64,000 nt of DNA from the NCBI GenBank assembly GCA_945863115.1, contig CAMAYZ010000002.1, positions 1-64,000 on the forward strand, read 5' to 3'. Position 1 is the first letter of the stretch. Each line of letters begins with the position of its first letter. The position numbers and the translations under genes are program-made. Source of the DNA: Bifidobacterium breve. Lineage in GTDB: Bacteria > Actinomycetota > Actinomycetes > Nanopelagicales > Nanopelagicaceae. Below are positions 29,624 to 33,218 of this stretch, piece after piece. Below the pieces are notes generated by a model. That model saw nothing but the letters and a program-made list of their open reading frames with translations. It searched no databases and had not been told where the DNA came from.

Positions 29624-30829
29624 ATGGACTCAAAATTTCCCACATTGCGGCCCGGAGTAAATTTCTTCAAAATAGCTGGCCAGAGCTGTAGTGACATTTA
29701 CGTCGGATTTAGTAACCGTGGGATTGAGTTGAAATTCGAAATTGCCGAACAGCTCTTGCGGTTATTTGATGGGAGCAGATCTCTAGCGAATATAACTTCG
29801 ATAATTGAAGCCGACCAAGTCCAGGCTACTAAATCATCGAAGGTTTGTGAAAATCAGATCTCCCAAATATTACAAATATTGCAAATATTAAGTGAAGAGC
29901 GATTAATTGAATTTCGAACCTCGCCACTACCCAACCAATTACCTAAAAAGGAATTGCCTGCGGCTAACTTAGTTAATTCTCTTAATCGGATGCGGGCCGA
30001 AGAAAATCTATATAGCTGGCATCCACAAGCAGATACTGGAATAAGTGCAGAAACTTTAATTGGCAAGCGTCGCAATTTTTCAATAATGATTTATGGCCGA
30101 AATCGTTTAGCGCTCTCGCTATTCGCAGTCTTGCAAGCAAGTGGCTTTACCCAAGTCAAACTAACCGATCGAACTAATTCGGCTGGCAACGATTCCATTG
30201 CTCAAATAGAGCCGTCGGACGTATGTGGGCTCGCGATACGTGGAAGTGATGTTGGGCTTCGAAAACCCTTGGTTCTCGCTGACTTAGCGCGAAATTCTCA
30301 ATTATTTCCCACAGGAGATTTGGCACTTCCAGCATTCCCGGTTATCCCGGATTTAATTATTTCAACGCAATCGGTCCCCCAAGAAACGATGCAAAACTGG
30401 TTGAGCGAAAATATTGTGCACCTACCTATTTCAAATCTAATTGAAAACAAAATTGTTATTGGCCCAATTGTTATCCCTGGAAAAACTCCCTGCCTTAATT
30501 GCTTGAACCTCTGGCGCGCTGAGCGATTTCCACATCACAATTCATTTGAAATTTTAGTGGCGCTAGATTGCGGCGAGGGCAAAGGTTTAGAACTTCCTTC
30601 GGCCCAGGTTGCGCTCTTGACGGGTTTGATAACTACGCAAGTAATTCAATATTGCTCCTTGCTAGATTCTGAAGAAACTCAGGTTTCTAAAAATTTGATA
30701 AAGCTCGTTGGTGCCACCTTGGCCATAAATCTCTTTGATCCACTTGGCTCAATCTCTTCGGAAGATGAAACCTTAGGATATAGATACTGGCAACCACATA
30801 TTTCTTGTGGCTGCCAGCGTCTTATCTGA
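29624..30829 (+). CDS. Orphan TOMM-cyclodehydratase/E1-like protein
   Basis: The 401-residue protein resembles the ThiF/E1-like, leader-peptide-binding subunit of azole-forming (TOMM) cyclodehydratases. Residues 1-95 look like a winged-helix recognition domain, followed by a Rossmann-like part (about 140-260) and a zinc knuckle formed by TPCLNCLNLWR (about 289) and the C-terminal SCGCQRLI. No YcaO partner or dehydrogenase is nearby. Homologues occupy the same spot in other actinobacteria (the Rv3196 region), so it is probably a housekeeping relative with a different, unknown role. Confidence 0.65.
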   Translation: MDSKFPTLRPGVNFFKIAGQSCSDIYVGFSNRGIELKFEIAEQLLRLFDGSRSLANITSIIEADQVQATKSSKVCENQISQILQILQILSEERLIEFRTSPLPNQLPKKELPAANLVNSLNRMRAEENLYSWHPQADTGISAETLIGKRRNFSIMIYGRNRLALSLFAVLQASGFTQVKLTDRTNSAGNDSIAQIEPSDVCGLAIRGSDVGLRKPLVLADLARNSQLFPTGDLALPAFPVIPDLIISTQSVPQETMQNWLSENIVHLPISNLIENKIVIGPIVIPGKTPCLNCLNLWRAERFPHHNSFEILVALDCGEGKGLELPSAQVALLTGLITTQVIQYCSLLDSEETQVSKNLIKLVGATLAINLFDPLGSISSEDETLGYRYWQPHISCGCQRLI

Positions 30830-31156
30830 TTAGCTAGCTAGTTGAATAAGTCGTGGTCGACCTGCAGTTCGCTTTGCTTGGATGACCTTGCCATCTTCAA
30901 ACAATTCACCGCCCCAAATTCCACATGGCTCGGCACGAGATAAAGCGCCTTCTAGGCACTTTGCTCGCATCGGACATTCACCACAGAGCGCCTTGGCATA
31001 CGAAATTTCGGCTTGGCTTTCTGCGAAGAAGGTCTCTGGATCTGCCTGATGGCAGGGAAGCTTCGTTGCGCTATCTGCGAAAGCAGTTACGCCAATCTTT
31101 GCATCTGGGCCTTCGGCCCATCCTGGTACTAATAGTTCGCTGAAGAGAACAGTCAC
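30830..31156 (-). CDS. whiB7: Iron-sulfur transcription factor WhiB7
   Basis: Activates intrinsic antibiotic-resistance genes with the main sigma factor. The four cluster cysteines are C in LPCHQAD and those of ALCGECPMRAKCL; then comes the turn GIWGGELFEDG and a C-terminal AT-hook-like AGRPR, which distinguishes WhiB7 from other Wbl proteins. GTG 31156 has GGAGGTGA at proper distance, so it is preferred to GTG 31165 (108 residues). The place beside a UvrD2-like gene is that of whiB7 in mycobacteria. A 330-nt leader with a uORF and terminator controls it. Confidence 0.93.
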   Translation of the reverse strand: MTVLFSELLVPGWAEGPDAKIGVTAFADSATKLPCHQADPETFFAESQAEISYAKALCGECPMRAKCLEGALSRAEPCGIWGGELFEDGKVIQAKRTAGRPRLIQLAS

Positions 31157-31260
31157 TGTTCTCACCTCCGTTTTTTCTAGTTTGGCTTTCTCTTGTTTGG
31201 GTTAGGTTGGTTGGTTGGGTTATCCGGATGGATAAATTCCTTGGGCTTCTGGCGGCTGGT

Positions 31261-31306
31261 AGAAAAGCAAAAGGGCCGCGAATCCTTTGAAAGGATTTGC
31301 GGCCCT
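31261..31306 (-). terminator. Intrinsic terminator in the whiB7 leader
   Basis: Arms at 31306-31291 and 31287-31272 (AGGGCCGCAAATCCTT paired with AAGGATTCGCGGCCCT, one mismatched base) followed on the minus strand by TTTTGCTTTT. It lies about 105 nt before the whiB7 start, so full-length whiB7 mRNA requires read-through. Confidence 0.92.
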
Positions 31307-31344
31307 GGGGCTTTTGACTATCGGTTAGCCGATAGAGCTCCAGG
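31304..31344 (-). promoter_or_regulatory. Stop-codon hairpin and candidate antiterminator of whiB7
   Basis: CTATCGG/CCGATAG (31335-31329 and 31324-31318) forms a 7-bp stem with the uORF stop codon in its loop. Flanking segments CCTGGAGCT (31344-31336) and AGCCCCAGG (31312-31304) can pair with one mismatch and would take up the first bases of the terminator 5' arm. Confidence 0.7.
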
Positions 31345-31486
31345 ATCCGCGCTTTGCATAGGCTGCATAGGTAGCAGCGAAGGCAAAATGCTTATGTGTT
31401 GATGGCTTATTTGTCGCTGATGCCACAACAAAAGACGCAGCCGAATTACGGCGTGCGCTCGAAGTTAGTGCGAGTTGTAGTGACAT
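31325..31486 (-). CDS. Upstream ORF (53 codons) in the whiB7 leader
   Basis: Leader peptide starting MSLQLALTSSARRN and ending KRGSWSSIG, stop TAA at 31327-31325. Its ATG lies seven nt after a TACCCT hexamer, so the message probably starts at the ATG with no ribosome-binding site. The stop codon sits in a hairpin 18 nt before the terminator stem. This layout matches the known ribosome-mediated attenuation of whiB7/wblC in actinobacteria, where slow or stalled translation of the uORF permits read-through. The peptide sequence itself need not be conserved. Confidence 0.8.
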   Translation of the reverse strand: MSLQLALTSSARRNSAASFVVASATNKPSTHKHFAFAATYAAYAKRGSWSSIG

Positions 31487-31493
31487 GTAGAGA

Positions 31494-31534
31494 AGGGTAA
31501 CTCACGCCACATCGATGGCGCAAGTTGATTAATT
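31494..31534 (-). promoter_or_regulatory. whiB7 promoter with AT-rich activator site
   Basis: Minus-strand TTGCGC (31523-31518), 18-nt spacer, TACCCT (31499-31494). An AT-rich stretch (AATTAATCA, 31534-31526) lies just upstream of the -35 element, where the WhiB7 AT-hook is known to contact its own promoter. Inferred autoregulated start at about 31486. Confidence 0.65.
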
Positions 31535-31556: not shown

Positions 31557-33218
31557 TTAGAGAATGCCGCTGAGAAACGGGCTGGGGCTTCCGGAATAGG
31601 AAAGATGCAATTCGCTCTTTGCGCGAGTGAGGCCCACGTAGAAAAGCCTGCGCTCCTCTTCAATGTCGTTGCCCATCGGCAATATTCCATCGCTGACCCC
31701 AGCCAAGAAAACATGGTCCCATTCCAGGCCTTTTGCAGCGTGCAAAGTTGAGAGCACCACGCCAGGCAGCGATGGCGGATTGTTCTGCTCGGCTCGATCT
31801 TCCAGTTCGCGCAGGTAAGTTCGCAGCGTTATTGCGCTCCCCGCCGAAGCCGCATCCTCTTGCATGGTTTTTGCCAAAGCTAAAAATGCGTGGACATAAT
31901 CGGTGTCACCAAATGGGCGCAAAACTGCAACTAAATCGTCATACCAATTTCCACCTTCAGTTGGCAGAACTGATGCACTTCTAATTACTCGCATTGCATC
32001 TCTAACATCTACCCGCTCGAAGAACTTTTCTGAACTTTTTATTTGCGACTCGATTCCAGCGCTTCGAAGTTCGCGTTCGAAGATATCTAATTGCGCATTA
32101 GTTCTTGTAAGGATTGCGACTTCAACATGTTCGCCAGCTTTAGCACGGAGCTCTGCAATCTTTTTCGCAATGAAATTTGCTTCACCCGCATTTGATTCAA
32201 ATTTTGCAATCTCTGGTTTAGCACCGTGTTCATTCATCGATGCAAGTTCGTGGCCGTGCTCGCCGATCATTCCGCCTTGACGCAAGATTGCATTTGCAGT
32301 TCCAATGATTTCTGGGGTCGAGCGGTAGCCGCGGGATAATCTAATTACTTGAGCGGTTGGAAAGCGCTTTGTGAAGCCCAGGAGAAACGATGAGCTTGCG
32401 CCGGCAAATGAGTAAATAGTCTGGGCCGCATCTCCAACTACACAAATGTCATCACGGTTACCAAGCCATAAATTCAATAATCGTTGCTGCAGTGGTGAAA
32501 CATCTTGATATTCATCAACGGTGAAATAACGATATTGATCACGGACCCGTTCGCGAACATCGCGATCTTCCTCCAACATTCCAACGGTCAATAAGAGAAC
32601 ATCTTCGAAATCAATTGCGCGCTCTTGTTGTTTCAAAGTTTCATAGGATTGGTAAACCTTGGAGATATCTTCAAAATTTGCTTTGTCAGGTTTGTTATTT
32701 GGAATTCGAAGTGTCCGCCCCGCACCAAGCGCCGATTCAACATATTCATCTGGTGAAATCTCTAAGACCTTTGCCCATTCAATTTCGCTGGCAATCTCCC
32801 GCAACGTTGATGTTTGCGGAGTCAACGAGGAATCTGTGCGATTTAACGCTTCGGCAATAGCACCAGATTTCATAGTTAGTAGCGATGGGAAAGAGCCACC
32901 AAAGGCATAGGGCCAGAAATACATTAATTGCTTAATTGCAGCAGAGTGAAATGTTCGAGCACTCGCATTTGGAATTCCAAGACCGCGCAATCTTGCTCGC
33001 ATCTCACCTGCTGCACGTGCAGTGAAAGTTAGTGCAAGAGTTTTACTTGAATCAGTAACACCTATTGCAATTGCATATGCGATTCGATGTGTGATTACAC
33101 GAGTCTTTCCAGTTCCTGCGCCAGCAATTACGCAAACTGGACCACGGACTGCAGTAACAACTTCTCGCTGCTCAGGATCTAGGGCTTCAAGTATCTGATC
33201 AACGCTGGCTGCCGGCAT
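31557..33218 (-). CDS. UvrD2-like superfamily 1 DNA helicase, short form
   Basis: 3'-5' DNA helicase of the UvrD/PcrA family. The 553-residue protein has Walker A VIAGAGTGKTRVI (about 31-43), motif Ia TLALTFTARAAGEM, motif II FTVDEYQDVSPLQQRL, motif III VVGDAAQTIYSFAGA, motif IV LSRGYRSTPEI and motif VI FYVGLTRAKSELHLS. It ends soon after motif VI; mycobacterial UvrD2 (about 700 residues) adds a tetracysteine region and an HRDC domain that are missing here. It abuts nudC (one nt between stop and start codons) as in other actinobacteria. Confidence 0.92.
   Translation of the reverse strand: MPAASVDQILEALDPEQREVVTAVRGPVCVIAGAGTGKTRVITHRIAYAIAIGVTDSSKTLALTFTARAAGEMRARLRGLGIPNASARTFHSAAIKQLMYFWPYAFGGSFPSLLTMKSGAIAEALNRTDSSLTPQTSTLREIASEIEWAKVLEISPDEYVESALGAGRTLRIPNNKPDKANFEDISKVYQSYETLKQQERAIDFEDVLLLTVGMLEEDRDVRERVRDQYRYFTVDEYQDVSPLQQRLLNLWLGNRDDICVVGDAAQTIYSFAGASSSFLLGFTKRFPTAQVIRLSRGYRSTPEIIGTANAILRQGGMIGEHGHELASMNEHGAKPEIAKFESNAGEANFIAKKIAELRAKAGEHVEVAILTRTNAQLDIFERELRSAGIESQIKSSEKFFERVDVRDAMRVIRSASVLPTEGGNWYDDLVAVLRPFGDTDYVHAFLALAKTMQEDAASAGSAITLRTYLRELEDRAEQNNPPSLPGVVLSTLHAAKGLEWDHVFLAGVSDGILPMGNDIEEERRLFYVGLTRAKSELHLSYSGSPSPFLSGIL

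Follow-up and report, generated by a model that had tools for sequence, protein, structure and literature searches.

A probable uORF-dependent attenuator leader upstream of whiB7 in a small-genome actinobacterium and its relatives

The whiB7 locus

The DNA analysed (hereafter the window) is a stretch of 64,000 nucleotides. Its minus strand carries a leader that is flanked by a gene for a UvrD-family helicase (31557-33218) and by a WhiB7 gene (GTG at 31156) and has the following features, given from 5' to 3'.

31535-31524, minus strand: AT-rich block CAATTAATCAAC, directly 5' of the -35 element (from sequence); predicted contact of the WhiB7 AT-hook
31523-31518, minus strand: -35 element TTGCGC (from sequence and the located promoters of relatives)
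31499-31494, minus strand: -10 element TACCCT, separated from the -35 element by an 18-nt spacer
31325-31486, minus strand: uORF of 53 sense codons and TAA (31327-31325), with 12 Ala codons
31355-31384, minus strand: six Ala codons within uORF codons -19 to -10, just 5' of the antiterminator arm
31336-31350, minus strand: antiterminator 5' arm GCGG-A-UCCUGG-A-GCU, inside the uORF
31335-31318, minus strand: stop-codon hairpin CTATCGG-CTAA-CCGATAG, with the TAA in the CUAA loop (from folding)
31299-31312, minus strand: antiterminator 3' arm AGC-C-CCAGGGCCGC, which includes the whole basal 5' arm of the terminator
31263-31315, minus strand: intrinsic terminator, hairpin 31305-31273 followed by the T-rich tail TTTTGCTTTT; extendable by AAAAGC/GCTTTT
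31165-31169, minus strand: Shine-Dalgarno sequence GGAGG of whiB7 (from sequence)
30830-31156, minus strand: whiB7, GTG start; Fe-S cysteines, GIWGG, AT-hook RTAGRPR; Pfam Whib match

The best solved relative of the downstream protein is PDB entry 7kif (E = 1.3e-23), and the alignment includes the C-terminal AT-hook region; the entry names WhiB7, which we take to be the M. tuberculosis protein. No NCBIfam match to the downstream protein was obtained at E 0.001. Judged by its sequence, the gene is a WhiB7 orthologue with an AT-hook. The genome (1.32 Mb, 93.5% complete) carries four WhiB genes and one copy of the leader at E <= 0.001, a reverse-strand match being the same place read backwards.

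The spacer between the terminator and whiB7 (31262-31157) contains CCAACC/CCTAACC-like repeats, the number of which varies among relatives; other tandem repeats occur in this spacer in loci L018 and L021. The spacer was considered as a Rho site and found unconvincing (median C 0.22 versus G 0.19, with C exceeding G in 47 of 74). A convergent gene on the plus strand (29624-30829), the end of which adjoins the whiB7 stop codon, gave a weak match, below the cut-off, to the TOMM leader-peptide-binding protein TIGR03882.

Related loci, promoter and start of the uORF

Eighty of the 108 loci found in a search were used as relatives. The nearest are mostly MAGs, several of them labelled Ca. Nanopelagicales, Nanopelagicaceae or Planktophila, and `the order' is used below as a group name inferred from these labels. 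The position of L063 and the stop codons of L012, L014 and L015 were set by hand. With a uORF stop codon and a terminator at 77 of the 80 loci and an 18-nt promoter spacer in all 70 located promoters (window included), the attenuator proposed in the initial annotation is conserved among relatives. At the three other loci (L017, L026 and L061) the DNA ends inside or just past the leader. Ten records titled Bifidobacterium breve, Streptomyces griseus or Clavibacter (L006, L036, L044, L050, L066, L069, L080, L035, L040 and L042) carry a freshwater-type whiB7 locus, so these titles are probably wrong. The most divergent leader, L043 (record titled Streptomycetaceae AM_0118), has leaderless spacing, a TATCCT -10 element and a CUAG/CUAG antiterminator core.

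The AT-rich block, the TTGCGC-18-TACCCT promoter, the uORF, the stop hairpin and the terminator all lie on the minus strand where the initial annotation had put them. Within the order, promoters were scored for TTGC and AT-richness and not for the 18-nt spacer, and in the 70 located promoters TTGC has an AT-rich block on its 5' side. No promoter was located in eight rows, of which seven have <260 nt upstream of the match and one (L051) has no match to the pattern. In known WhiB7 systems the AT-hook contacts an AT-rich block at the -35 element, and this is the basis for the contact expected here; the WhiB7-type AT-rich -35 promoter is conserved in sequence and is predicted to be activated by WhiB7. 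A simple consensus scan recovered neither the promoter nor the terminator at the leader; it gave no promoter 3' of the terminator, and the same scan also missed the upstream promoter.

A search of the genome itself with the WhiB7 promoter motif gave one other exact match, which covers an ATG, with an equal count in the control (1 versus 1), and 92 matches versus 74 in the control at up to three mismatches. The ORFs at two of the four two-mismatch sites were unconvincing, and no WhiB7 regulon is claimed.

The uORF of the window starts with an ATG at 31486, 7 nt past the -10 element, and is probably leaderless. The leaderless start given in the initial annotation fits this spacing, on which it is based, but it applies to 33 of the 70 leaders and not to all: in these the ATG lies 6-9 nt past the -10 element, predicting roughly 0-3 nt of 5' leader. 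In the other 37 the ATG is farther away, often with a Shine-Dalgarno-like sequence, some of these longer distances being measured to an in-frame ATG 5' of the likely start. On a WhiB7+UvrD tree (67 rows) the leaderless or leadered state changes three times, and none of 500 shuffles gave as few changes. Outside the order, where the scoring favoured the 18-nt spacer, none of the 15 promoters with a score of >=13 is leaderless by the same measure; among the 55 leaders examined there, two lack a promoter pattern and L163, which scored low, lies at 9 nt. A predicted leaderless uORF may therefore set the leaders of the order apart from those of other families.

Leadered leaders of the Planktophila-like clade, defined below, have a hairpin that starts a few nucleotides past the -10 element, upstream of the uORF (L047, L055-L057, L060, L062, L063, L068, L069, L073, L074 and L076-L079). 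Its loop, AUGGC or UUGGC (CUGGC in L062), is kept and its stems vary; it is possibly a 5' stabiliser or a binding site.

Folding of the leader

The basal arms of the terminator, GGGCCGC (31305-31299) and GCGGCCC (31279-31273), are separated by an A.C mismatch from the apical arms AATCCTTT and AAAGGATT, so that the hairpin is not perfect as had first been described. The flanking pair (31344-31336 with 31312-31304) previously thought to compete with the 5' arm of the terminator shares only 2 nt with that arm; it is the inner part of a longer antiterminator helix. In the fuller antiterminator, GCGG(A)UCCUGG pairs with CCAGGGCCGC and occupies the whole 7-nt terminator arm. G31350-G31347 pair with C31302-C31299, A31346 is bulged, U31345-G31340 pair with C31308-G31303 (U31345 with G31303) and, on the inner side, G31338-U31336 pair with A31312-C31310, followed by the stop hairpin.

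For the 3' part of the leader (121 nt), none of 200 dinucleotide shuffles folded as well (z = -4.7). When the 36-nt end of the uORF was shuffled, a segment that pairs as strongly with the terminator arm arose in six of 3000 cases, so the pairing of these two segments is not due to chance. Stepwise folding of the growing RNA gave the antiterminator fold (-33.7 kcal/mol) once the 5' arm of the terminator is out. For the full leader, the terminator and stop hairpin together reach -45.8 kcal/mol versus -41.2 kcal/mol with the antiterminator forced; given this advantage of 4.6 kcal/mol for the terminator in the full-length RNA, read-through needs kinetics that favour the earlier fold. With a ribosome masked at the stop codon the terminator remains.

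Pairing tests among relatives

An antiterminator duplex was obtained for all 51 distinct arm pairs, with energies from -14.2 to -25.2 kcal/mol. The Planktophila type is GAGGCC(A)CUUGG with CCAAGGGCCUC (L072 and others), and many relatives pair less fully. Exchanging partners between species weakened the duplex from -20.2 (native) to -17.3 (swapped; standard deviation 0.38), and no permutation was as strong as the native set (0 of 10,000; 0 of 20,000 with 20 chosen diverse leaders). Controls with displaced segments gave z from -2.0 to +1.7 (six on the 5' side) and from -2.0 to +1.5 (three on the 3' side), compared with -4.6 at the true place. On synonymous recoding of the uORF end, the native sequence beat the recoded mean in 51 of 51 cases (mean z = -2.2), and fewer than 5% of the recodings reached the native value in 37 of the 51 (0.3% for the window).

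RNAalifold, run on a MAFFT alignment of 22 leaders, returned the terminator only, with little covariation, and did not recover the antiterminator. Rigid counting of antiterminator columns gave 76% paired versus 59% on permutation; because the bulge shifts by one base between clades, such counting mixes two registers, and the energy-based swap test was used instead. The clearest double change in the antiterminator (C-G to U-A) arose once on the tree, and the arms are nearly invariant within the window's own clade. For the antiterminator, the swap and recoding tests are in favour; the RNAalifold result and the single event are not.

One of the six control windows for the stop hairpin, 60 nt 5' of the stop codon, was itself positive (swap 0 of 20,000, z = -3.6), and the swap result for the stop hairpin therefore weighs less than that for the antiterminator. 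No common structure is evident in that control window (uORF codons of about -25 to -13, 76 to 38 nt before the stop codon).

Leaders of other families

A class-wide sample of 118 genomes gave 82 WhiB7-hit loci of other families (L125-L206); L118 and L120 (same family) were left out, as their AT-hook differs from the search pattern. At 55 of the 82 loci the detector placed a terminator close to WhiB7 and an ORF stop codon just 5' of that terminator; for 49 of these 55 the duplex between the end of the ORF and the terminator arm is below -14 kcal/mol. The remaining loci comprise 18 without a terminator, seven with a distant terminator only, one without the WhiB7 motif and one without a stop codon. 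As the detector missed leaders that were found by the covariance model described next, its counts are lower bounds.

The covariance model R1 was built from 22 leaders of the order with a short calibration, so that its E-values are rough. At E < 0.01 it matched 38 of the 82 loci (25 of the 49 searched first, which had been chosen from the 55, and 13 of the 33 others). All 38 matches lie 5' of WhiB7 on the same strand, and five of them are restricted to roughly the terminator half of the model. The control, 30 own-genome loci without this leader, gave one match at E < 0.01; this match, in L002, is >1 kb from any WhiB gene motif and looks like chance. In Rfam no match reached the gathering score, and a relaxed E-value gave only matches far below the gathering scores. 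On the strength of these sequence comparisons the leader of the window is a member of the known whiB7/wblC attenuators and is homologous to the leaders of other families. Other families of the class frequently have long uORFs and stop codons inside or beside a hairpin; neither feature is a distinction of this leader, contrary to the initial annotation.

Attenuation model and known systems

The leader is, with high confidence, a transcription attenuator of whiB7. The stems and the uORF are conserved and the alternative pairing is supported, and attenuation by way of the uORF, as first proposed, is the best reading. We infer the following course, from transcription start and translation of the window's uORF to stalling, termination, read-through and autoactivation, together with the inducing signals. 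RNA polymerase would start at the WhiB7-type promoter, and a ribosome would start to translate the uORF, probably from the extreme 5' end of the transcript. On reaching the stop codon it would cover the stop hairpin together with the 3' part of the uORF; with the antiterminator thus blocked, the terminator would form and transcription would end. If ribosomes were stalled or held upstream, possibly at codons -19 to -10, GCGG(A)UCCUGG would be free to pair with the emerging CCAGGGCCGC; this would remove the basal terminator arm and the polymerase would continue into whiB7. Slowed ribosomes thus probably let whiB7 be read, and WhiB7 would then boost its own promoter.

A uORF-based transcription attenuator of whiB7/wblC in mycobacteria and Streptomyces has reportedly been described by Lee in 2022 and by Burian in 2018. 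It resembles the leader analysed here in having WhiB7 downstream, a uORF, a Rho-independent terminator and an antiterminator formed from uORF and terminator sequence. It differs in that the window has a low-GC host with a small genome and a uORF rich in Ala, Tyr, Phe and His. Passages of PMC10727445 state that actinobacterial whiB7 genes typically have uORF leaders, with an antiterminator formed by overlapping uORF and terminator sequence, and the same mechanism is described in parts of PMC9618640 and PMC11550727. For M. marinum and M. bovis, an excerpt of PMC4128351 places the whiB7 uORF about 10 nt past a Shine-Dalgarno motif, in contrast to the predicted leaderless uORF of the window.

Two further systems are comparable in logic. 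In the ilvB1NC attenuator of M. tuberculosis, as outlined in sections of PMC13236596, a stalled ribosome likewise frees an antiterminator and a ribosome at the stop codon leads to the terminator, but the codons are those of branched-chain amino acids (BCAA) and an enzyme operon is controlled. The ARE-ABCF genes are5sc and tiaA of Streptomyces coelicolor also combine an antibiotic-stalled uORF with an antiterminator; their uORFs, as portrayed in portions of PMC12421871, are very short and stall the ribosome at the start codon.

A literature search for whiB7 together with Nanopelagicales found no paper. A switch known from soil and host-associated actinobacteria to sense antibiotics and starvation appears to have been retained in freshwater relatives with small genomes. 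This retention suggests that the stalling of ribosomes exerts real selection on them.

The uORF peptide and what it may sense

Coding selection was estimated as pN/pS from pairwise comparisons, the pairs not being independent. In a sister clade of the window's own, which we label Planktophila-like (14 distinct segments), codons -22 to -10 gave a pN/pS of 0.12 in frame versus 1.61 and 1.96 in the other frames, and peptides such as KPAFYAAFYAGYEA are kept through synonymous change. For the last eight codons the ratio was 1.0, which agrees with RNA pairing being the dominant constraint at that end. These ratios clearly indicate purifying selection on the uORF peptide in this clade. In group D the indication is fair (0.32), and group C showed ten nonsynonymous and no synonymous pairwise differences. 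Coding selection was not shown in the window's clade (0.73; other frames 0.58 and 0.48) or in group C. L024 and L025 retain CCTGGAGC in a different reading frame.

Enriched residues in the uORFs are His, Tyr, Ala, Thr, Trp and Phe; Glu, Leu, Cys, Gln, Asp and Ile are underrepresented. Over codons -45 to -9 of 63 distinct peptides Ala makes up 23.6%, versus 9.9% in long ORFs of the window (2.4-fold), and it is above background at all 71 loci with enough sequence. Over codons -22 to -9 the enrichment is 2.9-fold for Ala, 6.2-fold for Tyr and 2.6-fold for Phe. In the uORF of the window itself, 12 of the 53 codons are for Ala (binomial p = 0.005).

Two refinements of the attenuator model, neither of them its opposite, make use of this composition. 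According to one, in line with reports on whiB7 of mycobacteria, what the uORF chiefly senses is the supply of amino acids, above all alanine, and a shortage of Ala-tRNA stalls the ribosome just 5' of the antiterminator arm. The consistent excess of Ala argues for it, as does a link between alanine starvation and whiB7 in mycobacteria that is mentioned in passages of PMC10727445 and PMC13370626, but alanine by itself leaves the enrichment of His, Tyr, Thr, Trp and Phe unexplained; we regard it as a tentative and somewhat doubtful proposal. According to the other, the peptide is adapted to drugs that act at the peptidyl transferase centre. With phenicols and oxazolidinones, ribosomes stall at a penultimate Ala and less at Ser or Thr, linezolid responding to the amino acid and not the codon (from extracts of PMC8987054), so an Ala/Ser/Thr-rich uORF would be good bait. 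The combined content of Ala, Ser and Thr has a median of 43% in the 63 distinct peptides versus 24% in proteome windows and exceeds the 99th percentile in 31 of the 63; the aromatic and His enrichment is again unaccounted for, and outside the order this tuning is only partly matched, since Ser is depleted there (0.71), although Ala and Thr are up (1.6 each). This too is possible but rather unlikely. A constitutive terminator with an incidental ORF, the antiterminator being a by-product of sequence conservation, would agree with the terminator-only RNAalifold result and with the near-invariant arms and lack of demonstrable coding selection in the window's clade, but it is highly improbable in view of the swap and synonymous recoding tests, the recurrence of the pairing in other families and the retention of CCTGGAGC despite the altered frame in L024 and L025.

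Within the attenuator model, a more specific and on balance unlikely proposal for the order is that the sequence of the whiB7 uORF is selected, with an Ala/Ser/Thr bait placed just 5' of the antiterminator and a leaderless start in about half of the sampled leaders. If it were true, the leaderless switch would answer inhibitors of canonical initiation differently from the leadered version of its relatives. Neither the leaderless start nor the peptide-level selection was found described in the literature searched, though both may have been published. The leaderless and leadered uORFs, with one clade under apparent peptide-level selection, offer a natural experiment on what the whiB7 uORF senses. 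The uORF of L016 carries tandem repeats of Tyr-Ala-Asn/Lys codons just before the antiterminator arm, as if slippage had expanded the Ala codons.
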